From an uncultured Bacteroidales bacterium (GTDB lineage: Bacteria > Bacteroidota > Bacteroidia > Bacteroidales > Bacteroidaceae), in assembly GCA_902787575.1 (NCBI GenBank), contig CADAGX010000002.1:1-64000 (forward strand): 64,000 nucleotides of DNA. The letters run 5' to 3'. The notes under the pieces were generated by a model, which saw nothing but the letters and a program-made list of their open reading frames with translations, was not told where the DNA came from and did no database searches. This document shows, piece after piece, positions 1 to 60,683 of this stretch. Made by a program: the position numbers and the translations under genes. Position 1 is the first letter of the stretch. Each line of letters opens with the position of its first letter.

Positions 1-130
1 CGTAGAGGATGACATTTCTTTTGTGCATTATGTGGAGCGCAATGGCAATGAATCACGTCTGTTTGATATGCCTATTGAAGTCTTTAAAGAAGAACGCGAT
101 AAATTCTTAGCCAATGATAACGCCAATTGA
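1..130 (+). CDS. C-terminal end of a probable JetC-like SMC ATPase (partial)
   Basis: An open frame enters from the left edge (codons in phase from base 2) and stops at 128-130, giving the last 42 residues, which end KFLANDNAN. No domain can be read from so short a tail. The call rests on context: the stop overlaps the start of the next gene, a clear JetD, by 17 bases, and in Wadjet loci the SMC-like ATPase gene jetC directly precedes jetD. An unrelated AAA ATPase partner is possible. The base composition is AT-rich like the next gene and unlike the rest of the window. Confidence 0.5.
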   Translation, partial: VEDDISFVHYVERNGNESRLFDMPIEVFKEERDKFLANDNAN

Positions 131-1238
131 AATAAAGAAGAAAGCAGCGAATAAATACAAGGCTTATTTGCAGTCTATTGTTGAAGGAGAATCTTTCAAC
201 CCAATTGTCATTGTTGGTGATAAGAAACCAAACGAGGATACCGTCAAATTTGAGGAAGAGTTGAGGGAATTAATTAGTTGCTCCAAAGAGAAGAAAGGAT
301 ATGGATATACAATCGAATACCAAACTGTAAAAACGAAAAGACATGGGATACAGGATATTCCTACATATATCAGTTTTCAGACAGAATATGACTATCTTAA
401 ATATATAAATGAAGAAAAGGATACTGCAAAATTCAAGAAAGACATAAGCAGTATTCTCTCTTCCTTTCCTGAACTGAAAGATTGGATTTACAAATACCCC
501 ATTAAAGTCATAGAGAATGATTGGGAGAGTTTGCTCAAGGTATGCAAATATTTCAAGGCAATCCCCCAACCACATCTTTATATTCGTGAGTTGCCAATAC
601 AAGTTCATACCAAGTTCATTGAAAACAACAAAGGTATTATTCGGGAGTTGCTAGAAATAATTATAGCAGAACACATTAATGTAGATGAAAAGCAATTTGA
701 AAGCCGTTTCAATCTTAAATGCGACGAAACATTAGTGCGCTTTCGGATATTAGACAAGGCCATTAGCCAGCAACTTTTTGGGGGTATTGATGATATAAGC
801 ATTCCAATAAGTGAGTTTCAATACCTGTCTCTTCCCATCCAGACCGCATATGTGGTGGAAAACAAGATTAATATGCTGACTTTTCCCGTCAAAAGAAACA
901 GTATTGTTATATGGGGACACGGATTCGGTGTTGATATAATGAAGAATGTTGAATGGCTCAAGACGAAAAAAATCTATTATTGGGGAGATTTAGATGCTTA
1001 TGGTTTTCAAATCCTTTCTGAGATTAGGACACATTTTGAGCAGGTGGAGAGTTTCATGATGGATAGGCATACATTCGATTTGTTTTATGAAGGTGATAAA
1101 GGTGCAGAAACAAACGTAGAAAAAGATTTGCATTTAACAGAAGAAGAAAAGATGATGTTCAAGTTTCTAAAAGCCAATTATCTACGTTTAGAACAAGAAA
1201 AGATTCCTTTTGAATATGTTTTAAAAAATATTCCTTGA
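114..1238 (+). CDS. jetD: Wadjet protein JetD-like (DUF3322/DUF2220, Toprim-like nuclease subunit)
   Basis: This 374-residue protein matches the JetD layout: an N-terminal DUF3322-like helical region (about 1-190) followed by a DUF2220 Toprim-fold domain. Visible signatures are VVENKIN with Glu249, a WGHGFGV loop, YWGDLDAYGFQILSEIR with Asp292 and Asp294 as the Toprim acidic pair, and the SFMMDRHTF motif near the end. In known Wadjet systems the JetABC SMC complex extrudes plasmid DNA and JetD cuts it, so this gene should be the nuclease of a plasmid-exclusion system. It overlaps the preceding frame by 17 bases, suggesting coupled translation. JetA and JetB would lie outside the window. The gene is markedly AT-rich compared with the chromosome to its right, consistent with horizontal acquisition. 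The family call is firm; activity is inferred. Confidence 0.85.
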   Translation: MITPIEIKKKAANKYKAYLQSIVEGESFNPIVIVGDKKPNEDTVKFEEELRELISCSKEKKGYGYTIEYQTVKTKRHGIQDIPTYISFQTEYDYLKYINEEKDTAKFKKDISSILSSFPELKDWIYKYPIKVIENDWESLLKVCKYFKAIPQPHLYIRELPIQVHTKFIENNKGIIRELLEIIIAEHINVDEKQFESRFNLKCDETLVRFRILDKAISQQLFGGIDDISIPISEFQYLSLPIQTAYVVENKINMLTFPVKRNSIVIWGHGFGVDIMKNVEWLKTKKIYYWGDLDAYGFQILSEIRTHFEQVESFMMDRHTFDLFYEGDKGAETNVEKDLHLTEEEKMMFKFLKANYLRLEQEKIPFEYVLKNIP

Positions 1239-1247
1239 CCTTTACTA

Positions 1248-1640
1248 ATGATCATAACCGAAGTCGTTGCTGCTGTTATTCGCAAAGGTGATAAGATATT
1301 TGCCACACAGCGTGGATATGGTGAATGGAAAGACTGGTGGGAGTTTCCTGGTGGAAAGATGGAGGCCGGAGAAACGCCGGAGGAAGCGCTGAAACGAGAA
1401 ATTCGCGAAGAACTCTCGACGGAGATCAGTGTGGATGAGTTTCTCTGCACCGTGGAATATGACTATCCGAAATTTCATCTAACGATGCATTGCTACCTCT
1501 GCTCGTTGCTGTCTGAAGCTCTACACTTAAATGAGCATGAAGCTGCTAAATGGTTATCAAAAGACGAACTGGATAGTGTGAAGTGGCTTCCAGCAGATTT
1601 AGAGGTAATTAGTCAACTAAGAAGGATAGTAAAAATGTGA
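1248..1640 (+). CDS. Nudix hydrolase, MutT-like (8-oxo-dGTP diphosphatase family)
   Basis: This is a 130-residue single-domain protein. The Nudix box runs from GGKMEAGE to REIREEL, giving the Gx5Ex7REUxEE metal-binding pattern; the usual following glycine is replaced by serine. An N-terminal VVAAVIRKGDKIFATQR strand and WWEFPGG before the box match MutT/CTP-pyrophosphohydrolase-type enzymes that clean oxidised nucleotides from the pool. It starts 9 bases after the jetD stop and may be co-transcribed with the defence genes, but its composition is closer to the chromosome. The exact substrate cannot be told from sequence. Confidence 0.85.
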   Translation: MIITEVVAAVIRKGDKIFATQRGYGEWKDWWEFPGGKMEAGETPEEALKREIREELSTEISVDEFLCTVEYDYPKFHLTMHCYLCSLLSEALHLNEHEAAKWLSKDELDSVKWLPADLEVISQLRRIVKM

Positions 1641-1688: not shown

Positions 1689-2080
1689 TGACAGCTCCCC
1701 ACACAAATTTTTCCTCGAAAAAACCTACACACCTACACTTTTGCAGGGTAACAGATTGGTTCTCTGTGCGGTATAGGTGTGTAGGTTTTGGTGTAGGCAA
1801 GCCATTTTAGTGTAGGTTTTCCTACACATCGGGGCGTTTTTTGAGTCCGGAAGGTGGTTAGTTGGTGCTTCGTGCGACGTGTGGCAAGGTGAAATGCTAC
1901 GCGTCGCGCTTGTGTTTATGACGTGTGAAATGTTAAAAACTATGGGTATTGGGGCAAAACCTACACCTTTTTGGCGAACCTACACCGAAACCTACACACC
2001 CATAACTCGCAGTGTGCCAAACGGATATTGGTCCGAGGTGTAGGTTTGTAGGTTTTTTCGGAGAAAAATTATTTGGGGAG
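1689..2080 (+). repeat. MITE-like dispersed repeat, copy A (CCTACAC-rich, terminal inverted repeats)
   Basis: This is a non-coding element of about 390 bases. Its left end contains TTTTTCCTCGAAAAAACCTA and its right end TAGGTTTTTTCGGAGAAAAA, so the ends are inverted repeats of each other over about 30-40 bases. The interior is full of CCTACAC/GTGTAGG units. Reverse-complementing 33291-33660 reproduces the same order of blocks with high identity, for example the ACCCATAACTCGCAG block followed by ACGGATATTGG. No open frame in it looks coding. A degenerate 22-bp palindrome array (1874-1929) lies inside. The rest of the 1641-2306 gap holds only the promoter of the next gene. Confidence 0.8.
1874..1929. 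repeat. Degenerate 22-bp-periodic palindrome array (3 cores)
   Basis: Three 12-bp cores start at 1874 (GCGACGTGTGGC), 1896 (GCTACGCGTCGC) and 1918 (ATGACGTGTGAA), exactly 22 bases apart. They match the core family seen in the strong arrays at 12172, 39307, 51259 and 60584. The third core is eroded. Confidence 0.6.
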
Positions 2081-2306: not shown

Positions 2307-3728
2307 ATGGCTTCGAGAAGAGATTTTCTGAAGGGCGTGGGCTTGGCAACAGCTGGCCTGACGATTAGCCCGAGTGATGTGTTTGCCATGACTTCGAAAG
2401 AGACGAAGGAGGCAAAGACGGAAAAGGTGAAGATTGCCTACATCGGCATCGGTAACCGCGGTGAACAGAATATTCGCGAGTTTGCAAAGACGAACATGGT
2501 GGACGTGGTGGCTCTGTGCGACGTGGACCTGCAGGGCAAGCAGTGCCAGAAGGTGCTGGAGATGTATCCCAACGCCAAGCGCTTTACGGACTTCCGCAAG
2601 CTGTTCGAGGAGTACGGAGACCACTTCGAGGCTGTGGCCGCCAGCGTGCCCGACCATATCCACTTCTTCGTGGCTATGATGGCTCTGAAGTATAAGAAGC
2701 ACATCTATCTGGAGAAGCCGATGATTCGCACCTTCCAGGAGGCTGAGCTGCTGATAGAGATGGCAAAGCGCAACCCGCAGCTGGCCACTCAGGTGGGCAA
2801 CCAGGGTCACTCGGACGCCAACTACTTCCAGTTCAAGGCTTGGAAAGAGGCTGGCATCATCAAGGACGTGACGGCTGTGACGGCTCACATGAACAACGAC
2901 CGCCGCTGGCACAAGTACGACCCCAACATGATAAAGATGCCGGAGGGCGATCCCATCCCGGCTGGAATGGACTGGGATACATGGCACGGCGGCGTGCGCT
3001 ACCACAACTTCAGCAACCTCTTCCATCAGGGCGACTGGCGTAGCTGGTACGACTTCGGTATGGGTGCACTGGGCGACTGGGGTGCTCACATCCTGGACAC
3101 GGTACACGAGTTCCTGGATCTGGGCCTGCCGTACGAGATTAACATGCTCTACGCGAAGTATCACAACGAGTTCTTCTTTCCCTACAGCAGCACCATCCTG
3201 TTCCGCTTCGGCGCACGCGGCAACATGCCTCCCTGCGACATTACGTGGTACGACGGTGTGGACAACCTGCCGCCACTGCCCGCCGGCTACGGCAAGAGCG
3301 AACTGGCTGCCGGCATTCCTACCACGAACCAGGGCGTCTATAAGGAGGAGAAACTGAACCCGGGCAAGATTATCTACTCGCGCGACCTTATCTTCAAGGG
3401 CGGCAGCCACGGCAGCACGCTGAAGATTATTCCCGAGGAGAAGGCCAAGGAGATGGAAAGCAAGCTGCCCGTGGTGCCGAAGAGCCCGAGCAACCACTAC
3501 CGCAACTTCCTGCGCGCTTGCCAAGGCACGGAGAAGACACGTTCGCCGTTCGAAATCAACGGCGTGCTGAGCCAGGTGTTCTGCCTCGGCGTCATCGCAC
3601 AGCGCCTGAACACGCAGCTGTTCTTCGACCCGCGCACGAAGCAATTTACCAACAACGCGTTCGCCAATGCCATGCTCTCGGGCATGCCTCCGCGTCGCGG
3701 CTGGGAAGACTTCTACAAACTGGATTAA
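2307..3728 (+). CDS. Tat-exported Gfo/Idh/MocA family oxidoreductase
   Basis: This 473-residue protein starts with a twin-arginine signal (SRRDFLKG followed by a hydrophobic stretch to about residue 27), so it is probably exported folded with its cofactor. The Rossmann region has [12 protein letters not shown] near residue 45 and the family EKPM motif near 135, then the Gfo/Idh/MocA C-terminal alpha/beta domain with conserved histidines and aromatics ([25 protein letters not shown]). Family members of this type oxidise sugars, and exported Bacteroidetes members oxidise glycosides at C3. The gene immediately downstream is a DUF1080 protein, the partner expected for a 3-keto-glycoside route. 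The substrate is not known. It is first in a probable operon from the promoter at 2235. Confidence 0.85.
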
Positions 3729-9777: not shown

Positions 9778-11994
9778 CTATTTCATCACAAACTCCAGCT
9801 TGCCGCCTGCCACTATCTGGCTGTGCTGCAGCCGCCAGTCCTTGACGGGTATGCCATTCAGCCGCACGCTCTTCACATGGATGCGTTCGGGCGTCTTGTT
9901 CTTTGCCTCGATGGTAAACGTCTTGCCGCCTGCCAGATGCAGTGTGGCGCTCGTGAAGAGCGGTGTGCCGATGACATATTCGGCTGCACCGGCATTGAAT
10001 GGATAGAATCCCAGCGAGGAGAAGATATACCAGGCCGACATCTGACCGCAGTCATCGTTGCCCGCATAGCCACAAGGTTTCTCGCTGTAGAACGTTGAGC
10101 GCACCTGCTCCACAAGCTCCTGCGTGCGCTCGGGCCGGCCGGCAAAGTTGTAGAGATATACCGTGTGGTGGCTCGGCTCGTTGCCGTGAGCATACTGACC
10201 GATGAAGCCGCTGGCGTTGCCGTTCACCTCGCCGCTGGTGGCGGTGAGCGAGAAGTTCTCGTCCAGCTTCTGGAGGAATCCCTTGCGGCCGCCCAGCAGT
10301 TCGATAAGTCCGTCGGGGTTCTGCGGTACGAACCACATGTACTGCCAAGCGTTGCCCTCGATGAAGCACGGCTGCTCGTAGCTGAGCGGGTCGAAAGGCT
10401 CCACCCAGTTGCCGTGGCTGTCGCGCGGACGGAAGAAGCCCGTCTCGCGGTCGAAGAGATTGCGATAGAACTCGCTGCGGCGCCCGAAGCGCTCGGCATC
10501 GGCCGTGCGTCCCAGCTTGCGCGCCACGGCTGCCACGCACCAGTCGTCGAAGGCCTGCTCCAAGGTGATGCTCACGCTGGTATTCTGCTGGTCCTGCGGC
10601 ATGTAGCCGTACTGCTCCCACAGTTCGAACGGCGAGTTGCGGTGGCTGCGCGTGCTGCTCTCCACCATAGCCCGATAGGCCTCTTCCACATCGATGCCCG
10701 GCAGCTCGGCCAGTATGGCATCCGACAGCACGGGGATGGCGTGGTTGCCTATCATGCAGTAGTTGTCCTGGCCCCAGAGGTCCCAGATGGGCAGGTAGCC
10801 GTACGACTGGTGATGCCGCACCATGTCGCGCACAAACTGTGCTGCCACGTTGGGCGCGATGAGCGTATAGAGCGGATGAGCCGCACGGAACGTGTCCCAG
10901 AGGCTGAACGTGCTGTGATACGTCTCACCCACAGGCATCTGCTTTATCTCGAAGTTGGTGGTCATGTAGCGGCCGTCGGTGTCGCTCATCGTATTGGGTT
11001 GCATCAGCACGTGGTAAAGGCCCGTGTAGAAGATTGTCTTCTGTGCATCCGTAGCTTCGATGTCGATGCGCGAGAGTTCGCGCTGCCATACATCGTGTGC
11101 CGTGCTGCGGTAGTGGTCGAAGTCCCACCCGGCGGCCTCGGCCTTCATGTTCAGCTGTGCGCCCAGATTATCGACGGGCGAGATGGCCACCTTCACGGTC
11201 AGCGGCTCGGCATCGGCTGCAAAGCTGAGTGCGGCTCGCAGCTGACGGCCGTTCAGCACATCGCTCTTGCCCACACCGCGGTTGCCGTCCATGAAGAAAT
11301 GGCCGACGATGGGCCGCGAGAACTCGGCACGGAAATAGACCTTGCGCAGCTTGGCCCAACCCGTAATGACGCGGAAACCTTCCACCGTCCGCTCGTCCAC
11401 CAGCCGTAGCTGGCTCTGGATGATGTCGTAGGCGCGACGGCCGGTGTAGTACGCCGGTCCGCGGAACGTGCTGCGGTCGAGGTCGAGCACCACGGTCTGA
11501 GGCTTGCCGGCTGGGAATGTGTAGCGATGAATGCCGGTACGCACGGTGGCCGTCAGTTCCACCTTGACGCCGCTCTCGCGCAACTGCACCCAGTAGTAGC
11601 CCGGCTCGGCACCCTCCGCGTCGTGACTGAAGCGCTGCCCGAAGTTTCCTGCCGCCAGCAGCTTGGGCGTCACCTCCCACGAGACGGGCATCAGGCTCAC
11701 ATCTATGAGGTCGGTGCATCCCGTGCCACTCAGGTGTGTGTGAGTGAAGCCGTAGATGGAGTCGCAGTTGTAGTCGTAGCCGCAGCACGGGTCCCACGTC
11801 ACGTAATTTTCCGTCTCGGGACTCAGCTGCACCATTCCCTGAGGCAGCGTGGCGCCCGGAAACGTGCTGCCGCTCAGGGCGCCCGTCTCGTCGGTCTGCG
11901 TGCCGATGAAAGGATTCACATACTTCGTGTAGTCGGCAGCGCGTGCCACCAACAGGACGCCGCACATGGCCATGCAAAAAAGTGTTCTTTTCAT
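9778..11994 (-). CDS. GH92 family alpha-mannosidase (copy 2), secreted
   Basis: The frame is open from 12090, but the ATG at 11994 was chosen because it begins a normal signal peptide (MKRTLFCMAMCGVLLVARAA) and lies about 30 bases after a good promoter. This gives 738 residues. GH92 signatures are KYVNPFIGT, GSTFPGATLPQGMVQLSPET, GFTHTHLSGTGC, IEGNAWQYMW (probable acid Glu546) and GNDDCGQMSAWYIFSSLGFYPF. Unlike copy 1 it keeps the canonical GQMSAW. The two GH92 enzymes are diverged and probably act on different linkages. The downstream partner is the GH39-like gene. Confidence 0.9.
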   Translation of the reverse strand: MKRTLFCMAMCGVLLVARAADYTKYVNPFIGTQTDETGALSGSTFPGATLPQGMVQLSPETENYVTWDPCCGYDYNCDSIYGFTHTHLSGTGCTDLIDVSLMPVSWEVTPKLLAAGNFGQRFSHDAEGAEPGYYWVQLRESGVKVELTATVRTGIHRYTFPAGKPQTVVLDLDRSTFRGPAYYTGRRAYDIIQSQLRLVDERTVEGFRVITGWAKLRKVYFRAEFSRPIVGHFFMDGNRGVGKSDVLNGRQLRAALSFAADAEPLTVKVAISPVDNLGAQLNMKAEAAGWDFDHYRSTAHDVWQRELSRIDIEATDAQKTIFYTGLYHVLMQPNTMSDTDGRYMTTNFEIKQMPVGETYHSTFSLWDTFRAAHPLYTLIAPNVAAQFVRDMVRHHQSYGYLPIWDLWGQDNYCMIGNHAIPVLSDAILAELPGIDVEEAYRAMVESSTRSHRNSPFELWEQYGYMPQDQQNTSVSITLEQAFDDWCVAAVARKLGRTADAERFGRRSEFYRNLFDRETGFFRPRDSHGNWVEPFDPLSYEQPCFIEGNAWQYMWFVPQNPDGLIELLGGRKGFLQKLDENFSLTATSGEVNGNASGFIGQYAHGNEPSHHTVYLYNFAGRPERTQELVEQVRSTFYSEKPCGYAGNDDCGQMSAWYIFSSLGFYPFNAGAAEYVIGTPLFTSATLHLAGGKTFTIEAKNKTPERIHVKSVRLNGIPVKDWRLQHSQIVAGGKLEFVMK

Positions 11995-12058: not shown

Positions 12059-12171
12059 CTTTTTCCACCAATATTTTTTCGCCGCCACACTGCACTTTTT
12101 GCTCATCAGCCGTTCGCCGTTCCACATCCAAAACACGCCTCCTCACACCGCCACGCTTGCCTCTGAAAAAT

Positions 12172-12249
12172 GCCACGCGTCGCATCGCTTCACGCCACAC
12201 GTCGCAAAGCGTCACGCCACGCGTCGCGTGAACGAAAACTACACGTCGC
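12172..12249. repeat. 22-bp-periodic palindrome array (4 cores)
   Basis: Cores start at 12172 (GCCACGCGTCGC), 12194 (GCCACACGTCGC), 12216 (GCCACGCGTCGC) and 12238 (ACTACACGTCGC), exactly 22 bases apart. The spacer ending in GAAA before the last core is shared with the array at 51259. The array lies in the 583-base gap between divergent genes (11995-12577). The remainder of that gap is AT-rich, with two promoters and no credible gene. Confidence 0.85.
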
Positions 12250-12515
12250 ATTTTTCGACGTCACACATCGTCTTTCCCGAAACCACCCAAACTCCGCTCC
12301 AGATGCGCATTTCGCCACACCGAAAACCACTTTTAGCAACATCCAATTCTAAACCCTTCTTCCAGCACCTTCGCACACCACTATTTTATGTCCCACTTCC
12401 ACTTTTTTGCACGCAAAACTGCACAATTTCGCATAAAAAGCATAGGAAAAGTGCAAAAAACAGCATATTCTTAGCAATTTTTTTACTAATTTTTTTCTCT
12501 TCTACATTATTTTTA

Positions 12516-12577: not shown

Positions 12578-15500
12578 ATGAAATTTAAACATTACTTCCT
12601 TTCTGTTGCCTTGATGGCAATGGGCGGAGCAGGCACCGCCATGGCTTGGGACGAGCCGACGCAAGTGGACGGTGTTTACCAAATCGGCACCGCATCTGAG
12701 CTGGAGTGGTTCGCTGAGTACGTGAACTCGGCAAGCAGTGGTAACACGGCAATGCTCAATGCAAAGGCTGTGCTGACAGCCGACATCGACATGACTGACG
12801 TTAGCCACACCCCCATTGGCCCAAGCACCACTTACAAGTATGATGGTGAGTTCGACGGACAGCATCATGTCATCAGCAACATGATTATCGACCTGCCCGA
12901 AAAGGAGAACGTAGGTTTGTTTGGTATTGTACGCGGTAATGCGGTGATTAAGAACATCATCATCGACAGTTCATGCTCCATCAAGGGTAAGAACCGCGTG
13001 GCTGGAATTATCGGCAGCACTCAGACTGTGGCCGACAAGAAGATGGCTGTGTTAAACTGCGTCAACATGGCTTCCATTCATGCTTACTCTGGCGTTGCTG
13101 CCGGCATCATTGGTGCAGGACAGAGCCAGTATCCGTTCTTTAAGATGCACAACTGCGTGAACACCGGTGCCATCACCACCGATGCCGAAAAAAACTATAC
13201 TGTTGCCTTCAACGGATGGAACAACTCGGCCGGTGGCAATGCTCAGGTCTGGAGTTGCTACAATGCAGGAACCCTGAGCAAAATTGACGGCGTCAACAAC
13301 CTCTTCCGTGGCTCGAACCGTAGCACCCTCAACTCCTATGATGTGGTTAACAAAGATGCAACGTATCAGTCAAGATCTAATGTCCCTGCCGACATCATAA
13401 GCAATGGATTCCAGACAGCTGATCCTCTGCACAGCGGCGAGCTTTGCTACTACTTGAATCACGGTATGGAGATGATGGGACGTAGCGAGGTAACTGAGGG
13501 TGAGGAGTACACGCAAGACCTTAGCGACCCCAACTCTATTCCTATGCCCAATGCAGCAGGACCAAAGGTTTATCAGGTGGCCAACTACAGCTGCAACGGC
13601 AAGCCGAAAGGCACGATTGTTTACAGCAATGTGAACAGCAGCACAGTAGATGAGCACGTGAAGGGTGCCAACTTCGTTTGCGTGAACTGCAACAACTATG
13701 CGTTCGACGGCATCGAGGATTACAAGACTCCCGACGGCGAAGGCTACTACCATCTCTCCACAGTGGAAGACGTAGAATGGTTCGCTGCAATGGTAAACCT
13801 GAAATTCCACGGCGCGATGAACGCAAAGCTCGACAATGACATCGACTTCGGCGGCGTAAAGGCACACCAGCCCATCGGCTGCAGCGCTCACAAGTACGGC
13901 GGCCACTTCGACGGTCAGGGCCATCGCATCATCGGCATGAAACTGACGAGCGACCTTGTACTCAGCAATCCCGACTACGACGGCGTGGGCTTCTTCGGCT
14001 CGCTGCGTGCCGGCATCGAAGATGAAGGCTGGGTAGTGTCGAGCACCGAAGCTACGGTGGAGAACCTCATCATCGACAAGAGCTGCGACATCAACGTTCC
14101 CTATCACTGGGTGGGCGGTATCGCAGGTCATATCAACGCTGGTGACGGAACTGTAAATATCCTGAACTGCGGCAACGAAGCCAACATCACGGCTGCAGGC
14201 GACGCCAATGCCGGTATCATCGGTATCTCTGAGCAGACTGCTTACACGCTGAACATCATCGGCTGCTGGAACACAGGTAACATCACCGGCACCGGCAAGA
14301 ACTGCGCCGGTATCTTTGGCGGTAACTCGGGCAGCAAGACTACTGTGACGATTCGCGGCTGCTGGAACACGGGTAACGTGACAGCCACCAACGAGAATGC
14401 AGCCATCACCGGCTGGATTGGCAGCAACGCAGGCAACGAAATCAGCGGCTGCTGGAACAAGGGCACCGTGACGGGTCTGGACGGCACAAAGAGTCTCTAC
14501 CGCGGAACGGCCACCAACTATGGCCTGGCTGACGTACAAACTGGAGTACAGGAAGGTACTGCAACGCTGCTTACCGATGACATGTTTGCAAGCGGCGAAC
14601 TCTGCTACAGACTGAACGGCGACCAGAGCACAATCCGCTGGACGCAGAAGTTGGACGGCTCGCAGGATACTCCTGCCTTCGACGCAGGTGGCGACCAAGT
14701 ATACGTACACGGTCAGATTTATTGCAGCGGCGTTTCTGCCCCTGGTACCATCTACAACAACGAAGGACCCGACGGCGTCATCAACCTGCCTCACAACATC
14801 AACGACGAGATTGGTATGTGCGACGTTTGTCATACCCAGTTCCAAGAGCCTGCACTTGTTGACGGATACTATGAAATCAAGAATGCCGGTAACCTCGAAT
14901 GGTTCAGCCATAAGGTTGACGAAGGTGGCGATGCTAACCTTCAGATTAACGGTAAGCTGATGAACGACATTGACATGCTTGGCATCGAGAACCTCCACAA
15001 GCCTATCGGCGTGAGCACCGCCAAGAAGTACAACGGCACTTTCGACGGTCAAGGCTTCCGCATCAAGAACATGATTATCGAGCGTCCCACTGAGAGCAAC
15101 ATCGGTTTCTTCGGTTTCCTGCGTGGTAACGCTGCCAACACGACTGTCAAGAACCTCATCATCGACAAGAGCTGTACCATACACGCTTATAACCGCGTGG
15201 GGGGCATCACAGGTAGCTGCCAGAATAGTGGAACTCTCATCACTCTGGAAAACATTATCAACGAAGCAACCGTCATTGCTGAGCATCAGGATGCTGCCGG
15301 CATCATTGGCGGTCAGGAAGGCAACGGCCCGAAGTGGTACATCCACAATGTGATAAACCTCGGTACAGTTACTGCCAAGAACGCAGCTCCCTATGCTGGC
15401 GCACTTTGCTGCTATCTCGGCGGCAACAACGAAAGCGTTATTGAGAACTTCGTTAATCTTGGTACCATCAATGGTCACAACGGCGGTAACATCGGTCGTA

Positions 15501-37509: not shown

Positions 37510-40332
37510 TCAATGCGCCTCGAGCCAGTTGCTGCCCCATCCGCAGTCGGCAATCAGCGGCACACGCAGCGAGCAGGCCGATTGCATCTCCTCGAGCACC
37601 AGAGCCTCGAGGCGCGATTTCTCCTCGGGAAGCACGCTGAAGTTGAGTTCGTCGTGTACCTGCAGTATCATCCTCGAGCGGAGCCCTTCTTCCCGCAGGC
37701 GACGATAGACGCGAATCATGGCAATCTTTATGATGTCGGCCGCGCTGCCCTGGATGGGAGCGTTGATGGCGTTGCGTTCGGCATATCCGCGCACCACTGC
37801 GTTGTGGCTGTTGATGTCTGGCAAGTAGCATCGGCGGCCAAAGATGGTCTCGGTGTATCCCTTGTCGCGTGCCATGGCGATGCTGCGGTCCATGTATTCC
37901 TTCACGGCGGGGTACGTCTGGAAATATCCGTCGATAAGCTGCTTCGCTTCCTGCCGCGAGACGCCCATTCGCTCGGCCAGACCAAAGGCGCTGATGCCGT
38001 AAATAATGCCAAAGTTGGCCGTCTTGGCCCGGCGGCGCTCCTCGGTGGTGACGTCGGCCAGCGCCTTCTTGAAAATCTTGGCGGCCGTGGCGGCGTGTAT
38101 GTCGTGTCCCTGCCGGAAGGCGTCTATGAGGTTTTCGTCCTCGCTCAGGTGAGCCATGATGCGCAACTCTATCTGGCTGTAGTCGGCACTGAAGAAAATC
38201 TCGCCTTCGTCGGGTATGAATGCCTTGCGCACCTCCTTGCCCTGTGCGTCTCGCACGGGGATGTTCTGCAGGTTGGGGTTGCTGCTCGAGAGACGGCCCG
38301 TGGCAGCAATGGTCTGATTGAACGAAGTGTGGATGTGACCTGTCTGCGGATTGATGAGCTGCGGCAGTGCGTCGATGTACGTGCCCAGCAATTTCTTCAG
38401 CCCGCGATGCTCCAGGATTTTCTCCACGATGGGATGGCGCTGACGAAGGCTCTCGAGTATTTCCTCGCTGGTGACATATTGTCCCGTCTTGGTCTTCTTG
38501 GCCTTTTCTACGATATGCAAGTGGTCGAACAGCACTTCGCCCACCTGTTTCGGCGAGGCGATGTTGAAGTTAAGTCCGGCCAGCTGGTGGATTTCGTCCT
38601 CGAGGCTTTGCATCTGTGCCGTGTAGAGCCGCGAGGTCTCGCGCAGGCCGTCGGTGTCGATGCGCACACCATTGCGCTCCATGTAGGCCAGCACCGGCAT
38701 CAGCGGCATTTCGATTTCGTGGAAGAGACGCTCCTGACCCTCGGCTGCCAGCTGTGGCTCGAAGAGTTTGTAGAGGCGCAGGGTGACGTCGGCATCCTCG
38801 CAAGCATAGTCGCAGACGGCCGCCGGCTCCAGTTCCGACATGTTCTTCTGCGTCTTGCCGCGGCCTATCAGTTCGTCAATGTGTATCGTCTGGTAATGCA
38901 GGTAAGCCTCGGCCAGGTAGTCCATGCCGTGGCGCATCTCGGGGTGCAGCAGGTAGTGCGCTATCATGGTGTCGAACATCGGACCGCTCAGGTGGATGCC
39001 GTAGTTTTGCAACACCTGCAAGTCGTACTTCAGGTTCTGTCCCACCTTCAGCGTGTCGCTGCGTTCGTACACACCGCGGAACTCCTCGACGACGGCCTGT
39101 GTGCGACACGGCACGTACCACGCCTCGCCTTCGCACACAGCAAAGCTCAGTCCCACCAGCTCGGCCTGCAGCGGGTCGGTGCCGGTGGTTTCGGTGTCGA
39201 GGCACACCACATCAGACTCCTCCAGCCGTCGCAACAGGGCGGCACGCGCCTCGGGCGTGTCGGCCAAAGTGTACTGATGAGGAACGTCGCGCAAGGTCTT
39301 CAAACCGCCACGCGTCGCATCGTCAATTGCGACGTGTGGCATCGCGTCACGCGACGTGTAGTTTTCGTCGTTGCCACGCGTCGCATTTTCGGTCGTCTCG
39401 GCAAAGCCGCTGAAAAGGTCGCCCTGCACGGCTTGCGCCGGCGCTTTGACGGGTGCCGACGGACGAGCTATTTCCTTCCGCCGCATCAGCGTCCGGAACT
39501 CCAACTCCTCAAACAGCGCAGCCAGCGCCTCTTCGTTGGGCTGCTGCCGCAGCAGGGAATCCATGTCCAAAGCGATGGGAACGTCGGTTTTGATGGTTGC
39601 CAGCCATTTGCTGAGGCGTATCTGCTCGGCGTTCTCCTCGACCTTTTGCTTCAGCGCACCCTTCAGTTTCTCGGTCTGGCCCAACAGATTCTCCACACTG
39701 CCGAACTCCTGTATCAGTTTGGCCGCCGTCTTCTCGCCCACCCCCGGGCAACCGGGAATATTATCCACGGCGTCGCCCATCAGGCCAAGCATGTCGATGA
39801 CTTGCAGCGGGTGCTGCAGACCCCATTTCTGCGTCACTTGCTCGGGGCCCATCACTTCGGCCTCGTTCTTTCCCACGGGAGGACGGAAAATCCGCACGCG
39901 GCTGGTCACCAACTGGCCGTAGTCCTTGTCGGGCGTCATCATGTACGTCTCTATGCCACGCTCGTCGGCTTGGTGAGCAAGCGTGCCGATGACGTCGTCG
40001 GCCTCGAAGCCCGCCACTTCGAGCACTGGTATGTTGTAGGCCTCCAGCACCTTTTTAATATACGGCACGGCAAAGCGGATACCCTCGGGCGTCTCCTCGC
40101 GCTGTGCCTTGTATGCCGGGAACGCTTCGTGCCGGAACGTCCCGCCTGCCGGGTCGAAAGCCACGCCAATATGCGTGGGAGACTGATTCTGCAGCACGTC
40201 CTCGAGCGTGTTTACAAAGCCCAACACGGCAGATGTGTTCTGTCCCTTGGAGTTAAACCGTGGGTTCTTTATGAAGGCGTAATAGGCCCTATATATCAGG
40301 GCATAGGCATCCAATAGAAATAACTTCTGCAT
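37510..40332 (-). CDS. polA: DNA polymerase I
   Basis: This 940-residue protein has all three domains: an N-terminal 5'-nuclease (LLDAYALIYRAYYAF ... GCPGVGEKTAAKLIQEF), a 3'-5' exonuclease that keeps its acidic motif (CLDTETTGTD), and the polymerase domain with motif A (FFSADYSQIELRIMAHLSED), motif B (RRAKTANFGIIYGISAFG) and motif C (LQVHDELNFS). Residues about 314-345, in the linker between the 5'-nuclease and exonuclease domains, are encoded by a 22-bp-periodic repeat array and read ENATRGNDENYTSRDAMPHV and onward. The insert stays in frame and does not touch a catalytic region. The start MQKLFLLDAYALIYRAYY is canonical. Confidence 0.97.
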   Translation of the reverse strand: MQKLFLLDAYALIYRAYYAFIKNPRFNSKGQNTSAVLGFVNTLEDVLQNQSPTHIGVAFDPAGGTFRHEAFPAYKAQREETPEGIRFAVPYIKKVLEAYNIPVLEVAGFEADDVIGTLAHQADERGIETYMMTPDKDYGQLVTSRVRIFRPPVGKNEAEVMGPEQVTQKWGLQHPLQVIDMLGLMGDAVDNIPGCPGVGEKTAAKLIQEFGSVENLLGQTEKLKGALKQKVEENAEQIRLSKWLATIKTDVPIALDMDSLLRQQPNEEALAALFEELEFRTLMRRKEIARPSAPVKAPAQAVQGDLFSGFAETTENATRGNDENYTSRDAMPHVAIDDATRGGLKTLRDVPHQYTLADTPEARAALLRRLEESDVVCLDTETTGTDPLQAELVGLSFAVCEGEAWYVPCRTQAVVEEFRGVYERSDTLKVGQNLKYDLQVLQNYGIHLSGPMFDTMIAHYLLHPEMRHGMDYLAEAYLHYQTIHIDELIGRGKTQKNMSELEPAAVCDYACEDADVTLRLYKLFEPQLAAEGQERLFHEIEMPLMPVLAYMERNGVRIDTDGLRETSRLYTAQMQSLEDEIHQLAGLNFNIASPKQVGEVLFDHLHIVEKAKKTKTGQYVTSEEILESLRQRHPIVEKILEHRGLKKLLGTYIDALPQLINPQTGHIHTSFNQTIAATGRLSSSNPNLQNIPVRDAQGKEVRKAFIPDEGEIFFSADYSQIELRIMAHLSEDENLIDAFRQGHDIHAATAAKIFKKALADVTTEERRRAKTANFGIIYGISAFGLAERMGVSRQEAKQLIDGYFQTYPAVKEYMDRSIAMARDKGYTETIFGRRCYLPDINSHNAVVRGYAERNAINAPIQGSAADIIKIAMIRVYRRLREEGLRSRMILQVHDELNFSVLPEEKSRLEALVLEEMQSACSLRVPLIADCGWGSNWLEAH
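39307..39384. repeat. 22-bp-periodic palindrome array inside polA (4 cores)
   Basis: Cores start at 39307 (GCCACGCGTCGC), 39329 (GCGACGTGTGGC), 39351 (GCGACGTGTAGT) and 39373 (GCCACGCGTCGC), exactly 22 bases apart. On the polA coding strand the segment GAAAACTACACGTCGCGTGA is identical to part of the intergenic array at 51259. It is translated as part of the interdomain linker. Confidence 0.85.
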
Positions 40333-47294: not shown

Positions 47295-47381
47295 TTTTCC
47301 CGGTTGCCACACGTCATTTTAAGATTCCCACGTGTCGTATCGCAGATTCCACGCGTTGCATTGCCGTCTGCAACACGCTGC
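47284..47381. repeat. Degenerate palindrome array across the patatin/malY convergent ends
   Basis: Five core-like segments start at 47284, 47306 (GCCACACGTCAT), 47327 (CCCACGTGTCGT), 47348 (TCCACGCGTTGC) and 47370 (GCAACACGCTGC), spaced 22, 21, 21 and 22 bases. Individual matches are weak; the spacing is what suggests membership. The array covers both stop codons. Confidence 0.45.
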
Positions 47382-48507
47382 GCGGCACGCCCACATTGAG
47401 GCGCATAAAACCCTCGCCGCCGGGACCGAACATCTCGCCGTCGTTGAGCGCCAGCCGAGCGTGATTGACGAAGAGATCCACCAGTGCCGCGTGCGAAAGT
47501 TGCAGCCCACGGCAGTCGAGCCACACGAGGAAAGATGCCTGCGGACGCAGCGGACGCACAAGGGCTGGCAGACGCTGGGCGCAGAACGCTTCGACAAATT
47601 CCACATTCTGCTGGATGTAGTGCACCATCTGCCTGCGCCACTCCTCGCCCTCGCGGTACGCAGCCAGCGTGCCGACGATGGGAAGCGTGGGCGGATAGTC
47701 GAACTCGTTGGCCGCCAGCCAACCGAAAAAATTCTGCCGCAGTTCGTCTTTCGGCACCACGCAGTACGAACTCACCAATCCGGCCATGTTAAACGTCTTG
47801 CTGGGCGCCTGGAACGTGATGCTCTGCCGCGCAGCCTCATCAGAAACGGATGCGAAAGGCGTGTGGCGACAGCCGAAAAGCGCCATGTCGCAGTGTATCT
47901 CGTCGCTTACCACCACCATGTTCCGCTCGGCGCAGAAGTGGGCCAAGCGGCGCAGCGTGTCAGCGTCCCAGCAGATGCCTGCTGGATTGTGCGGATTCGA
48001 GAGGATAAAAAGTTTGCAGCGCTCGTCCCACACACGTTCCAGCTGGTCGAAATCCATTTCGTACGTGCCGTCCTCGCAGCGCCGCAGCGGATTCCACACC
48101 ACCTGACGCCTGTTGCCCTCGGGTACGAGCCGGAAGGGATGATACACGGGCGGCTGAACGATGACCTTGTCGCCTGCGGAAGTGAACACGTTCACGGCCA
48201 TGCCGATTCCTTTCACGATGCCGGGGACGTAGCGCATCCAGTCGGTTTCTACTTTCCAACCGTGATGTTCCTGAATCCAGCGCGCCACAGTGGGCCAAAA
48301 CTCGTCCGGGACGACCGAGTATCCCAGTATGGGATGACTGAGCCGACAGCGCAGCGCCTCAAGCACAAAGGGCGGCGTGGCAAAATCCATGTCTGCCACC
48401 CACATGCCCAGCAGGTCGCTGCGGCCAAACTGCTCGCGCATCTGCTCTAGCTTCACGGCGTTGGTGCCGCTGCGGTCTATCACCTGGTCGAAATCGTAGT
48501 GCTCCAT
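47314..48507 (-). CDS. patB: MalY/PatB-family PLP-dependent C-S lyase / aminotransferase
   Basis: This 397-residue class I/II aminotransferase-fold protein has Lys237 in QAPSKTFNMAGL as the PLP lysine, SNPHNPAGICWDADTLRRL, VVSDEIHCDMALFG, and the N-terminal LGMWVADMDFATPPFV typical of the MalY/PatB group. Members act as cystathionine beta-lyases, releasing homocysteine, ammonia and pyruvate. It lies 9 bases downstream of purE and probably shares the rpoN-PAP2-purE transcript. The last residues are encoded within a degenerate repeat array. Confidence 0.9.
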   Translation of the reverse strand: MEHYDFDQVIDRSGTNAVKLEQMREQFGRSDLLGMWVADMDFATPPFVLEALRCRLSHPILGYSVVPDEFWPTVARWIQEHHGWKVETDWMRYVPGIVKGIGMAVNVFTSAGDKVIVQPPVYHPFRLVPEGNRRQVVWNPLRRCEDGTYEMDFDQLERVWDERCKLFILSNPHNPAGICWDADTLRRLAHFCAERNMVVVSDEIHCDMALFGCRHTPFASVSDEAARQSITFQAPSKTFNMAGLVSSYCVVPKDELRQNFFGWLAANEFDYPPTLPIVGTLAAYREGEEWRRQMVHYIQQNVEFVEAFCAQRLPALVRPLRPQASFLVWLDCRGLQLSHAALVDLFVNHARLALNDGEMFGPGGEGFMRLNVGVPRSVLQTAMQRVESAIRHVGILK

Positions 48508-49083: not shown

Positions 49084-49695
49084 TTACATAAATATGACGC
49101 CGCAGTAGCCACAGACGATACCGACGGCCGTGCCGCCCAAAACCTGCCAGAGGCTGTGTTGGCGCAGCAGCATGCGACTCGTCATCACTAAGCCCGAAAC
49201 CAGGATTGCCAAGCAGAGCCACCACACGGCGTTGAACGAGAAAATTATAGAATAAGCCGCCAGAGCACCGATGATGCCGCCCGAACCGGCCGAATGCATA
49301 CTTACTTTCCAGCGAAGGTTCAGCAGCAAACAGCTACACTGCACCAACATAGACACCACGATGATGGCCGTGAAGAAGTGCGGCAAGTGTAGCGTTGTCA
49401 TCAACTGCATGAGACAGAGGTAGCAGCACAGGTGGATGGCGTAGGGTATCACGCGCTTTCGCTGGTGGCGCAGCTCGTGCCGTCTGAAACCACGGGCGCG
49501 ACGATAGAGATACGTGCCCAGCACGGGCAGTGTGACGGTGAAGATGTAAACCAGCGCCAGCACCCAGAGTTTGAATTGCCACGGCAGCATATTCAGATAG
49601 GTGAGTGTCAGCAGGAAAATGCAACCCACCGTGGGATAAAACGTCGGGCGGAACAGCGCCGACAGAATGCGGGCAAGGACGATAAGACTCTTCAT
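49084..49695 (-). CDS. PAP2-like integral membrane protein
   Basis: The ATG at 49695 overlaps the rpoN stop by four bases (ATGA), giving 203 residues with about six membrane helices. The upstream extension of the frame lies in rpoN and was rejected. The segments SMHSAGSGGIIGALAAYS and SRMLLRQHSLWQVLGGTAVG resemble the second and third motifs of PAP2 lipid phosphatases, although the usual D of SRxxxxxHxxxDVxxG is Gln here, so activity is uncertain. Coupling to rpoN is probably only transcriptional organisation. Confidence 0.75.
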   Translation of the reverse strand: MKSLIVLARILSALFRPTFYPTVGCIFLLTLTYLNMLPWQFKLWVLALVYIFTVTLPVLGTYLYRRARGFRRHELRHQRKRVIPYAIHLCCYLCLMQLMTTLHLPHFFTAIIVVSMLVQCSCLLLNLRWKVSMHSAGSGGIIGALAAYSIIFSFNAVWWLCLAILVSGLVMTSRMLLRQHSLWQVLGGTAVGIVCGYCGVIFM

Positions 49696-51143
49696 TTCCT
49701 CAGTCGTGCTACGGGGAAACCCATTTGTTCGCGGTACTTGGCCACCGTGCGGCGTGCTATCTGATATCCTTTCTCGTTGAGCATCTGCGTCAGGCGCTCG
49801 TCGGAGAGTGGCTGCCGCTTGTCTTCGTGCTCGATTTGTTCGCGCAGCACGGCCATGACACGGCGGGCAGACACTTCGTCGCCGTCTGTTTGCTGTGCGC
49901 GGCCCGAGAAGAACCATTTCAGCGGGAAGGTGCCGTAGGGCGTCTGCACGTACTTGCTGTTGCAGACGCGGCTCACCACGCTGATGCTGACGCCCGACAC
50001 CTTGGATACGTCCTCCAGTTTCATTGGCCGCAGCTGTGCTTCGTCGCCTTCCTGAAAGAAGTTTTTCTGCAGGCGGATGATGCCTTGCATGGTGCGAATC
50101 ATGCTTTCGCGCCGCATGGCCAACGCGTTGATGAACATCTGCCCTCGTTCGACGTAGCTCCGCGTGAAGCGCAGGTCTTCCTGCGCGGCACGGCTGAGCG
50201 ACGACAGTTTCTTGCCTTCGTACTGACGCAGCTTTTCTGTGGCATCGGGGCTTATCACCAGCGTCGGCACGTTGCCTTGGTTGAGCGACATGCTGATGTT
50301 TCCGTAACCGTCGGCTTCGACAATGAAATCGGGCGTTATCTGATGGCTGCGGCTGAGCCGCTCGCCCAGCGCCATGCCGGGTCGCGGGTTGAGTTTCACC
50401 ACTTCGCGCTGCAGGCGCTCCACCTGTCCGTCCGAAAGTTTCATGCGGCGCTGTATGCGGTCCCAGCGCTTATGGATAAAGTTGTCGAACTCCGTCTCCA
50501 GAAGTTGCTGTAGCAGTTTCCGCATCGGGTTTCGCTCGTCGCGCCGCACCTGTATGAGCAGGCATTCCTGCAGCGAGCGAGCTCCCACTCCGGCGGGGTC
50601 GAACTGCCAAAGCACGTGCAGCAGACGCTCCACCTCGGCCGGGCTGGTATTTACGGCCTGATAGATTTCCAGTTCGTCGGCCACTTGCGCAAGGTTCTTC
50701 TTGAGCAAGCCGTCGTCGTCGAGCGAGCCGATGAGGTATTCGAGCACTTGTTTCTCGTGGTCGCTGAGGTCGAATTCTGCCATCTGCGCCTTGAGCTGGT
50801 CGTAGAACGAGAGGGTGTCGCCGTATTCCACCGTCTCGGCCGTGGGTGTGCCGTTCTGCGTGCGCAGCAGGTAGTCGGGCACGTCCTCCTCCGAGCGGTA
50901 GTCTGCCATCATGTCTTGCATGTTTTCCTCGGTGCTACCCTCGGCAGGCAGAACTGCGTCGGCCGACGGGTCTTTTTCGAGCCATGGATTCTCGAGACAC
51001 TCGTTTTCCACGCGCTGCTGCAACGCTTCGAGCGACATTTCCGTCAGGCGCACAGCGATGACTTGCTGCGCCGAGAGCGCCTGCACCTGCACTTGCTGTT
51101 GCTGCTGCAACGCCTCCTGTGTCTGGATATTACGCTGGCTCAT
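49692..51143 (-). CDS. rpoN: RNA polymerase sigma-54 factor
   Basis: The start MSQRNIQTQEALQQQQQ at 51143 is preferred to an ATG seven codons upstream because the Gln-rich activator region I begins there. The 483-residue protein has region I, the core-binding region (WQFDPAGVGARSLQECLLIQ), the -12 binding helix-turn-helix and the RpoN box ARRTVAKYRE near the C-terminus (for the -24 element). It directs transcription that needs an AAA activator; none is encoded in the window. It is first in an rpoN-PAP2-purE-malY string. Confidence 0.96.
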   Translation of the reverse strand: MSQRNIQTQEALQQQQQVQVQALSAQQVIAVRLTEMSLEALQQRVENECLENPWLEKDPSADAVLPAEGSTEENMQDMMADYRSEEDVPDYLLRTQNGTPTAETVEYGDTLSFYDQLKAQMAEFDLSDHEKQVLEYLIGSLDDDGLLKKNLAQVADELEIYQAVNTSPAEVERLLHVLWQFDPAGVGARSLQECLLIQVRRDERNPMRKLLQQLLETEFDNFIHKRWDRIQRRMKLSDGQVERLQREVVKLNPRPGMALGERLSRSHQITPDFIVEADGYGNISMSLNQGNVPTLVISPDATEKLRQYEGKKLSSLSRAAQEDLRFTRSYVERGQMFINALAMRRESMIRTMQGIIRLQKNFFQEGDEAQLRPMKLEDVSKVSGVSISVVSRVCNSKYVQTPYGTFPLKWFFSGRAQQTDGDEVSARRVMAVLREQIEHEDKRQPLSDERLTQMLNEKGYQIARRTVAKYREQMGFPVARLRK

Positions 51144-51258
51144 CTTACTCGTTTGCTTTCGCACTGCAAATTTAAGAAGAATTCCGCATACGCGGAACGT
51201 TTCGCATACATTTTATCTCTGAGCCGCTCGACAGCCGCCACACGCGGGCCTCTGAAAT

Positions 51259-51357
51259 GCGACGTGTGGCGTGAAAAAAACTACGTGTGGCGTGAGCTCA
51301 TGCGACGCGTCGCGTGAACGAAAACTACACGTCGCGTGAAGCGATGCCACACGTGGC
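51259..51357. repeat. 22-bp-periodic palindrome array (5 cores)
   Basis: Cores start at 51259 (GCGACGTGTGGC), 51280 (ACTACGTGTGGC), 51302 (GCGACGCGTCGC, a perfect palindrome), 51324 (ACTACACGTCGC) and 51346 (GCCACACGTGGC), with spacings 21, 22, 22, 22. It lies in the 344-base gap (51144-51487) between the divergent rpoN and metallo-beta-lactamase-fold genes, upstream of the latter's promoter. Confidence 0.85.
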
Positions 51358-51487: not shown

Positions 51488-52405
51488 ATGAGCAAAGAGA
51501 AAGGCATTTCGCGCAGACACTTCCTGCAATCGTCGGCCCTACTGACAGCCGGCACCATGATTCCGACACATACTTTGGCCCGCGAGACGGGCAAGGGGAA
51601 GTCGGGCTTCACGATGTGGCAAATTCCCTCGCACCGAAACACCATCGGCAACTCGTATGTCTTCCGCACACGAGGCGGCAAAGTGGTGGTGATGGACGGC
51701 GGTTTTCCGGAAGAGGAATTCACCTTGCGCGGTTTCCTCGGCGCATTGGGCAACGAAGTGGACGCGTGGTTCATCTCGCACCCACACGACGACCACATGG
51801 GCGCCCTGTGCCAAATCCTAAAGGATGTGCAGGACCTGCGCATCCGGCACATCTATCACTCGCGTCTCACAGACGAAGTGACGGACGCCGAGCCTCATGA
51901 GGCAAAGAAGACACGCGCGTTCTACAAATTGCTCGACGAGGGAACCATCCCCGTGACGGATATTCAGCAGGCCGGCCACACCTACGACTTCGACGGAATG
52001 CAGCTGAAAATCCTCAGCACGGCCACGGGACTGACAAATAACGCCTACAACAATAATTCCATGATAATGCGCGTCTGGGACCGCCGCAAGGCCATAGTTT
52101 TCCTCGGAGACGCCGGAGTGGAATGCGGAGACCTCATGCTCCGAAGTCCCTACCGCGACGACCTGAACTGCGACTACCTGCAAATGGCGCACCACGGCCA
52201 GCAGGGCTGCTCCGAAGCGTTCTATCGCTCGTTCCGATTCCGCGCATGCCTGTGGCCCACCCCCATGTGGGTATGGAACAACGACACGGGGAATGGCTAC
52301 AACACGGGCCATCTGAAAACCATCGAGACGCGACTCTGGATGGACCGCCTTGGCATCAAGGAACATCACGTGAGCGTACGCGACGGACTCTTCAGACTCG
52401 ACTAA
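51488..52405 (+). CDS. Tat-exported metallo-beta-lactamase-fold hydrolase
   Basis: This 305-residue protein has a twin-arginine signal (SRRHFLQSSALLTAGTM). The metal-binding motif HPHDDHMG (HxHxDH) is at about residues 98-105, then a GDAGVECGD strand and LQMAHHGQQG with the late histidines, which together resemble ComEC-type MBL domains. The substrate is unknown. It leads an operon with GH78 (31-base gap) and GH97 (42-base gap), which suggests a role in processing the same glycan or a released product, but MBL enzymes are not typical glycan degraders. Confidence 0.82.
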   Translation: MSKEKGISRRHFLQSSALLTAGTMIPTHTLARETGKGKSGFTMWQIPSHRNTIGNSYVFRTRGGKVVVMDGGFPEEEFTLRGFLGALGNEVDAWFISHPHDDHMGALCQILKDVQDLRIRHIYHSRLTDEVTDAEPHEAKKTRAFYKLLDEGTIPVTDIQQAGHTYDFDGMQLKILSTATGLTNNAYNNNSMIMRVWDRRKAIVFLGDAGVECGDLMLRSPYRDDLNCDYLQMAHHGQQGCSEAFYRSFRFRACLWPTPMWVWNNDTGNGYNTGHLKTIETRLWMDRLGIKEHHVSVRDGLFRLD

Positions 52406-60583: not shown

Positions 60584-60683
60584 GCGACGTGTAGTTTCGC
60601 TTCACGCGACACGTAGTTTTCGCTCACGCGACGTGTGGCATTTCTTCATGCGACGCGTGGCATTTTCACACGCTACACTTCGC
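60584..60683. repeat. 22-bp-periodic palindrome array reaching into the uvrC stop codon (5 cores)
   Basis: Cores start at 60584 (GCGACGTGTAGT), 60606 (GCGACACGTAGT), 60628 (GCGACGTGTGGC), 60650 (GCGACGCGTGGC) and 60672 (GCTACACTTCGC), exactly 22 bases apart. The last core contains the uvrC stop codon (60673-60675, minus strand), so the end of UvrC is encoded by it. The rest of the gap to dtd (60446-60583) holds nothing recognisable. Confidence 0.85.

Follow-up and report, generated by a model that had tools for sequence, protein, structure and literature searches.

Dispersed extragenic repeats are already known, including repeats of 22 and 23 nt in Porphyromonas gingivalis (available text of PMC4596501). 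REP/BIME elements and RAYT palindromes, with their GTAG and CGTC super-families, are short, dispersed, and mainly extragenic; they vary between species and are sometimes arrayed or intragenic, according to the accessible sections of PMC3733652. Within Bacteroidales, BrickBuilt of P. gingivalis comprises dispersed, intergenic, imperfect 23-nt tandem repeats of limited host range. As described in the accessible sections of PMC4596501, it forms one family in one species, with 1 to 22.8 repeats between a leader and a tail that have terminal inverted repeats; the same source reports 22-nt tandem repeats in P. gingivalis W83. The STAR elements of staphylococci are also interspersed intergenic direct repeats that vary between species (PMC3532100). 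The stoperators of Cluster A mycobacteriophages are many dispersed sites for one repressor, in which both site and specificity vary between genomes, and those away from promoters block elongation (PMC6550527, in part). In CRISPR arrays, long direct repeats alternate with spacers that are similar in length but unrelated in sequence. We know of no 22-bp near-palindrome pitch among STAR elements.

Here, we describe arrays of near-palindromic units repeated at a 22-bp pitch, which resemble REP/BIME, BrickBuilt, STAR elements, and stoperators in part. A description of such arrays was not found in the open-access library searched, outside which subscription papers mostly lie. Nor was a parallel found for a conserved pitch with replaced sequence, within the parts of the sources that were available.

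The window is a stretch of 64,000 nucleotides from an uncultured Bacteroidales bacterium, whose genome (G000) comprises 2.65 Mb in 34 contigs. It contains four clear and two weak arrays, none of them assigned to a strand. The original prediction placed arrays of four or five cores at 12172, 39307, 51259, and 60584. All four are present, but the third runs from 51237 to 51357 and has six cores. The first (12150-12271) lies in a divergent intergenic region. Its good cores start at 12172, 12194, and 12216, which match GCSACRYGTSGC exactly, and at 12238, which has two mismatches; weak units stand at 12150 and 12260, and all units are spaced at 22 bp. The second array (39307-39384; four cores) is located inside polA (37510-40332, reverse strand), in the linker that connects its two exonuclease domains (5'-3' and 3'-5'), and the reading frame is open through it. 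The array at 51237-51357, with one gap of 21 bp, separates divergent genes: a sigma-54 gene (49692-51143, reverse strand) and a metallo-beta-lactamase-fold gene (51488-52405, forward strand). The fourth (60584-60683; five cores) lies at the 3' end of uvrC (60673-62517, reverse strand). The uvrC stop codon falls inside the last core (60672-60683), and thus the array supplies the end of the gene.

The two weak arrays, absent from the original prediction, comprise a pair of intergenic cores (1874-1907), about 430 bp upstream of an oxidoreductase gene (start ~2307-2337, end 3728, forward strand), and four degenerate cores with gaps of 21, 21, and 22 bp (47306-47381). The latter lie between convergent genes and overlap the 3' end of an aminotransferase gene (47314-48507, reverse strand). 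A second dispersed repeat, with CCTACAC / GTGTAGGTT motifs, flanks the array at 1874 (window 1720-2060) and is found again beside arrays at two other loci of the same genome (L084, ~9900-10100; L085, ~14130-14450). At the left edge of the window (1-1640), a gene at 114-1238 (forward strand) encodes JetD_C and DUF3322 domains (Wadjet JetD), probably as part of a Wadjet defence operon that runs into sequence beyond the edge. An Rfam scan of the window gave no matches.

When up to two mismatches are allowed, the core matches 94 times in the window, against a mean of 51 (sd 6.6) in 100 dinucleotide shuffles, none of which reaches 94. Exactly 22 bp separates 16 pairs of matches and 44 bp separates 10, while every other distance from 12 to 59 bp occurs at most three times. 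The arrays and their 22-bp spacing therefore exceed shuffled controls. Across G000, there are 300 exact cores per strand, compared with 9 for a reversed control pattern (33-fold). With one array as a blastn query, G000 yields at least 76 matches at E<=10 and at least 51 at E<=0.001 (40 of 141 candidates scored), which are spread over at least 18 of the 34 contigs. The family is thus dispersed, as had been predicted.

Each G000 unit is a 12-bp near-palindrome followed by a 10-bp spacer. The spacers had been noted as related; they are, and they are also often reversed. Among 145 cores from 30 G000 array loci, positions 4-5 (AC) and 8-9 (GT) are nearly invariant, and the centre is GC, GT, or AC, never AT (0/145). 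Gaps in these loci are 22 bp (102 cases), 21 bp (12), or 27 bp (one). The original prediction called the period exact. In a 464-kb sample of G000, with gaps of 19 to 25 bp permitted, 58 of 64 gaps are 22 bp but the other six are 21 bp; the proposed closeness to two helical turns is borne out by the 22-bp gaps. Fifteen of the 19 arrays in this sample have four to six units.

Comparisons were made with G061 (MAG RUG13359) and with further genomes of the same genus (G005, G008, G012, G013, G024, G025, G027, and G036). Nine species were sampled in depth, at 40 to 464 kb each, so that genome-wide array totals are extrapolations; the large samples are those of G000 (464 kb), G061 (400 kb), and G025 (393 kb). 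The genus assemblies used are fragmented and mostly incomplete (61-92% complete), and genes were called with a home-made dicodon caller. G025 has 57 arrays in its sample, with exactly four units in 46 of the 55 that have three or more. In most, AAAAC forms the left boundary and GTTTT the right one. The G061 sample has seven arrays of two to four cores each. Flanks of G061 arrays show a motif, ACCTCACC, that is inverted at both ends and stands seven bases beyond the outermost cores.

For REP/BIME, BrickBuilt, and CRISPR alike, we find that the arrays lack at least one of the defining features tested. CRISPR had been discounted in the original prediction, and rightly so: the arrays are made of short near-palindromes with related, often reversed spacers, unlike the long direct repeats and unrelated spacers of CRISPR. 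A Pfam scan of 10 genes in the window, and of 10 others that adjoin G000 arrays, showed no cas genes. The BrickBuilt report, in the main text available (PMC4596501), does not use the word palindrome, whereas the arrays here are near-palindromic, usually with three to six units, short end motifs, and families that vary by species. Among 98 flanks of 250 bp in G000, 23 pairs are similar, of which six are the same locus twice and the others are duplicated loci or another repeat. Among 40 such flanks in G061, there are 12 similar pairs. End motifs lie within ~20 bp only. A long mobile element with a leader and tail of the BrickBuilt type is thus unsupported by the flank comparison. No convincing fixed-offset direct repeat, as expected of a target-site duplication, was detected in 47 G025 arrays, and the end motifs of G061 and G025 are short and inverted.

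REP/BIME elements differ in having a variable distance between dimer partners, as the accessible sections of PMC3733652 describe, compared with the fixed 22-bp pitch here. By eye, no GTAG or CGTC tag is common to the flanks and units tabulated for G000, G061, and G025; many G025 units have CGTC ahead of the core, a feature absent from the G000, G061, and GGTTAACC families. The RAYT protein (Y1 transposase, PF01797) was matched in 14 of 41 genus genomes, over the cut-off in 11, with one match in G000. G025 gave no match in an assembly that is 87% complete, so that absence is not certain. RAYT transposition as the source of the arrays is unsupported, given the lack of a PF01797 match in this array-dense genome.

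In logic, though not in descent, the stoperators are the closest of these systems. Stoperators differ in being phage-borne, asymmetric, and placed predominantly in one orientation to transcription, and the accessible sections of PMC6550527 do not mention 22-bp arrays. G025 arrays do not have this single orientation (13 versus 12).

The sequence of the cores changes between species. A blastn search with the array sequence of the window over 60 relatives gave two weak matches, both in G005, one of which (L031) is a genuine array of near-identical cores; a widespread distribution of GCSACRYGTSGC across relatives is therefore rejected. An exact 34-base pattern has no match in 84,980 species genomes or in viral contigs, collections from which its own or a near genome may be absent. 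Thus, GCSACRYGTSGC is close to species-specific, although not strictly private, while the pitch and the near-palindromic units are common to other species.

Families of other sequence occupy the relatives: GGAGCRYGCTCC and several others in G061, GCASCRYGSTGC in G025, GGTTAACC and a CTGCAG-centred unit in G024 and G012, AACRYGTT-centred units in G008, CGCCGCRYGCGGCG-type units and others in G027, and CCCCTATAGGGG and others in G005. Several families thus coexist in some of the genomes. In a reciprocal test, the 464 kb of G000 contained 17 arrays with its own core and none with that of G061, and the 400 kb of G061 contained seven with its own core and none with that of G000. A G061 array used as a query gave 33 matches in its own genome at E<=0.01 (some being both strands of one place) and a single weak match, in one genome, among 17 others. 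A separate family is present in Bacteroides sp. ET71, whose record carries no metagenome-assembly mark; it has 24 matches there and none in five other genomes.

The pitch, in contrast, stays the same. With gaps of 19 to 25 bp permitted and 22 bp not favoured, all 16 gaps in G061 and 162 of 166 in G025 are 22 bp. This holds even though 525 of 3243 letters (~16%, counted at positions with a majority base) differ from the majority in 47 four-unit G025 arrays. We also performed a sequence-independent de novo scan for self-similarity at lags of 12 to 40, with one uniform setting. Lag 22 accounted for 33/33 arrays in G025, 20/28 in G061, 13/18 in G000, 14/17 in G008, 12/14 in G024, 11/14 in G027, 10/11 in G005, 3/5 in G036, and 3/7 in G013. 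One Markov shuffle of each set contained no lag-22 array, and neither did 50 kb of E. coli. Lag 22 accounts for 12 of 34 arrays across 18 first-contig stretches from the genus, three of which belong to species with in-depth samples; eight of the 18 carry at least one. Among 75 named Bacteroidales loci, which entered the sample through PolA similarity, lag 22 occurs in 28 of 66 arrays, with at least one in 21 loci. Twenty stretches from other families of the order (268 kb) contain one lag-22 and two lag-23 arrays. This class of arrays is dense in the genus and also occurs in other Bacteroidaceae and at two Parabacteroides loci; in the samples from the rest of the order it is rare.

Near-palindromy is associated with this pitch. 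At least five of six dyad pairs are present in the consensus unit of 55% of 162 lag-22 arrays (14% for shuffled units), compared with 16% of 95 arrays of other lags (9% for shuffled units). The commonest centre among palindromic lag-22 arrays of the genus is CACG, CGTG, or CGCG (38/78, 19 of these from G025), but it is not universal, since AATT, TGCA, TTAA, CATG (two arrays), and further centres also occur. A composite array in G005 (L032:3440-3750) joins several different palindrome families head to tail at a ~22-bp pitch, and is perhaps a snapshot of family replacement. Two 22-bp arrays in G061 (L271:1041-1250 and L272:510-646) contain runs of identical units, which are presumably recent expansions.

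We propose that the arrays are DNA-level docking platforms for a putative oligomerising, sequence-specific protein that binds double-stranded DNA. Judged from sequence, this reading stands at about even chances. A dimeric protein would recognise each pseudo-palindromic unit, one half of the dimer to each half of the unit, and the 22-bp repeat, at two helical turns, would place neighbouring dimers on one face of the DNA, where they could stack into a filament of typically three to six dimers. The total binding of a dimer would have to exceed a threshold, such that one weak half is tolerated. The filament might act as a roadblock or insulator between transcription units, as a nucleoid-organising clamp, or as both, resembling phage stoperators in its logic. 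The dominant site family or families of a species would presumably correspond to the form of the protein, or the set of paralogues, that this species carries.

A selfish or neutral minisatellite, spread by template switching, gene conversion, or a transposase and without host function, is on balance an unlikely rival. Dispersed families that differ between species speak for it, as do conserved short end motifs such as the inverted ACCTCACC of G061. Further evidence comes from the sister species G024 and G012, which are mostly 90-96% identical where both were compared. Seven of 13 G024 arrays were compared with their G012 counterpart, and in all seven the array is in the same place. One array differs by exactly one 22-bp unit. 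Another has five units in both species and aligns without gaps; one identical base change is common to the five units, and each of four other changes is repeated in three or four of them. Such parallel unit changes, and the exact unit difference, favour a minisatellite.

The same comparison also argues for constraint. In five GGTTAACC arrays, with cores picked as near GGTTAACC in one species, the cores differ at 1 of 144 sites and the spacers at 20 of 182, whereas the 60-bp flanks differ at 97 of 590, some of these differences adjoining alignment gaps. Eight of the 20 spacer differences stem from one spacer that is reverse-complemented exactly between the two species, a local inversion that again fits a minisatellite. 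This inverted spacer comprises 14 bp between two palindromic cores (L333:14301 versus L354), and is evidence of hairpin or recombination activity at the cores. Taken together, these comparisons, although a small test, indicate that arrays stay put over such distances, with constrained cores, while units are inverted, gained or lost, and homogenised in register. Besides the core conservation, a selfish origin has to contend with a pitch that stays at 22 bp despite the many non-majority letters, with few common flanks and no target-site duplication seen, and with the lack of a Y1/RAYT match in G025, where arrays are denser than in the other two large samples. The mobile mini-repeat that the original prediction had considered lacks support from long common flanks or target-site duplications, even though unit gain and loss, spacer inversion, and unit turnover were found.

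Beyond sister species, common array positions were seen only at polA and uvrC. The polA linker carries four cores in G000, three cores of another family (GGAGCRYGCTCC, at 22 bp) in RUG13359 (L091), and none in G025. At the 3' end of uvrC, 2 of 30 loci have an array (G000 and G025), the stretch searched being short in a few; the G025 array lies ~100 bp beyond the gene and its cores are unlike those of G000. By lag-22 score, conserved gene pairs of G000 and G025 have an array in both genomes in one case (uvrC) and in neither in eight, and the one pair conserved between G000 and G061 has an array in neither. Of 13 intergenic regions conserved between G025 and G061, two have an array only in G025, one only in G061, none in both, and ten in neither (lag-22 score). 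These discordant regions imply that arrays are gained and lost, which tells against the docking reading, as does the coexistence of several families in some genomes. Upstream of the gene at ~2307-3728, 22-bp arrays of different families were found in 9 of 17 genomes (lag scan), in addition to the two cores in G000; an array also lies upstream of the G061 ortholog. A single conserved array locus was nevertheless rejected, because the upstream neighbour gene is not common to the species and intergenic arrays are very common.

Protein docking and a role in RNA make different predictions for how the two halves of a unit change. If the arrays were REP/BIME-like 3'-UTR elements, with hairpins that stabilise or terminate transcripts, the halves should change in a matched manner. 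We consider such a role in RNA quite improbable. Array RNA does fold better than shuffles in 7 of 7 cases (z -2.3 to -5.0), as palindrome arrays tend to, and the A-run and T-run ends of G025 arrays are also in its favour. However, single-strand folds differ from array to array, with no common structure. In the 47 G025 arrays, a set chosen by total mismatches, which favours negative values, the two halves of a core pair less well than shuffled ones do (z -2.9 to -4.7). Pairing between cores reaches z <=0.8, and self-pairing of spacers 1 and 3 gives z 1.4. The half-site correlation is r -0.49 in G025 and -0.65 in G061, where the same choice of units by total mismatches favours a negative r. In an unbiased G025 set of 33 arrays, picked by self-similarity alone with no core pattern, r is -0.36 and self-pairing has a z of -7.6 with the centre pair and -1.1 without it. 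The signal therefore resides in the unit centre, and the arms are merely without compensation. No matched changes were seen within or between cores; thus, there is no hairpin compensation.

The unit centre in the G000, G025, and G061 families is CACG, CGTG, or CGCG, and not CATG, which leaves one half of it or both intact. AT centres number 0/204 in G025 (40.6 expected if the sides are independent), 0/43 in G061 (10.3 expected), and 0/119 in the unbiased G025 set (25.4 expected). A loose G000 set of 786 'units', an invalid test as it includes chance matches, gave r +0.43 and 14 AT centres against 90.7 expected. The tetramer CATG is no rarer than expected in the three samples (G000, G025, and G061; observed/expected 1.05, 1.42, and 1.28, as listed), and its avoidance at the centre is not general, since two G027 arrays have a CATG centre. 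That a perfect A-T centre is avoided speaks for a protein able to tolerate a single weak half, and tells against base pairing. Separately, GATC is strongly depleted in the same three samples (observed/expected 0.17, 0.19, and 0.37), which suggests past or present restriction at GATC.

The position of the arrays is the remaining point in favour of a role in RNA. Arrays in tandem contexts lie closer to the 3' end of the upstream gene in 23 of 26 cases in G025 (p ~9e-5), 7 of 10 in G000, and 1 of 1 in G061. This bias could instead reflect promoter avoidance. In the tandem contexts of G025, the sense strand reads GT in 13 arrays and AC in 12; there is thus no strand bias, which argues against a role in RNA. 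A strict terminator scan of the 61 gene 3' ends that face G025 arrays placed a terminator between gene and array in 10 cases, beyond the array in three, only inside it in five, and nowhere in 43. Cooperative binding by protein, as suggested in the original prediction, fits the pairing, centre, and strand tests, although the binding itself is something we infer.

Ordinary regulon operators, that is, promoter-proximal sites of a global regulator, would also be near-palindromic and occur in multiples at helical spacing, and 5 of 19 G000 arrays do lie between divergent genes. This explanation is nonetheless highly improbable. Arrays are closer to gene 3' ends than to 5' ends (median distance 57 versus 200 bp in G025, and 76 versus 178 bp in G000), and one is inside polA. 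The 57 G025 arrays comprise 17 between convergent genes, where no promoter is expected, 26 in tandem contexts, 11 between divergent genes, one in a gene, and two at edges. In the G025 sample, 54 arrays are intergenic, compared with 143 intergenic regions that measure 80 bp or more. Among ten genes beside seven homogeneous or representative G000 arrays, no candidate for a binding protein was found by Pfam. These genes encode ordinary enzymes and structural or unknown proteins, and an array-linked master gene is unsupported.

Chance, low-complexity sequence, or assembly artefact has a probability close to nil: the genus genomes are fragmented and incomplete, but the 33-fold excess over the control pattern, the absence of arrays from shuffles, the independent family in Bacteroides sp. 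ET71, and the orthologous conservation of arrays in sister species all stand against it.

The docking-platform reading can be extended to a previously undescribed architecture, in which tens to hundreds of intergenic filaments of a fast-evolving oligomerising protein would insulate transcription or shape the nucleoid, with specificity and sites turning over together. We offer this extension tentatively, as possible but doubtful. If the arrays are protein platforms, a large share of intergenic regions would be marked by a structured site whose sequence differs by species. It would then become testable how a chromosome-wide DNA-binding specificity can shift while many sites follow. Such co-turnover, if true, would parallel in bacteria the way in which phage repressors and their stoperators vary together. 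The arrays would also provide ready bait for a new nucleoid or insulator protein, since a family of this kind is present in Bacteroides sp. ET71, which is apparently an isolate. Even if the arrays are selfish DNA, a class of repeats that keeps its pitch while swapping its sequence would be unusual.
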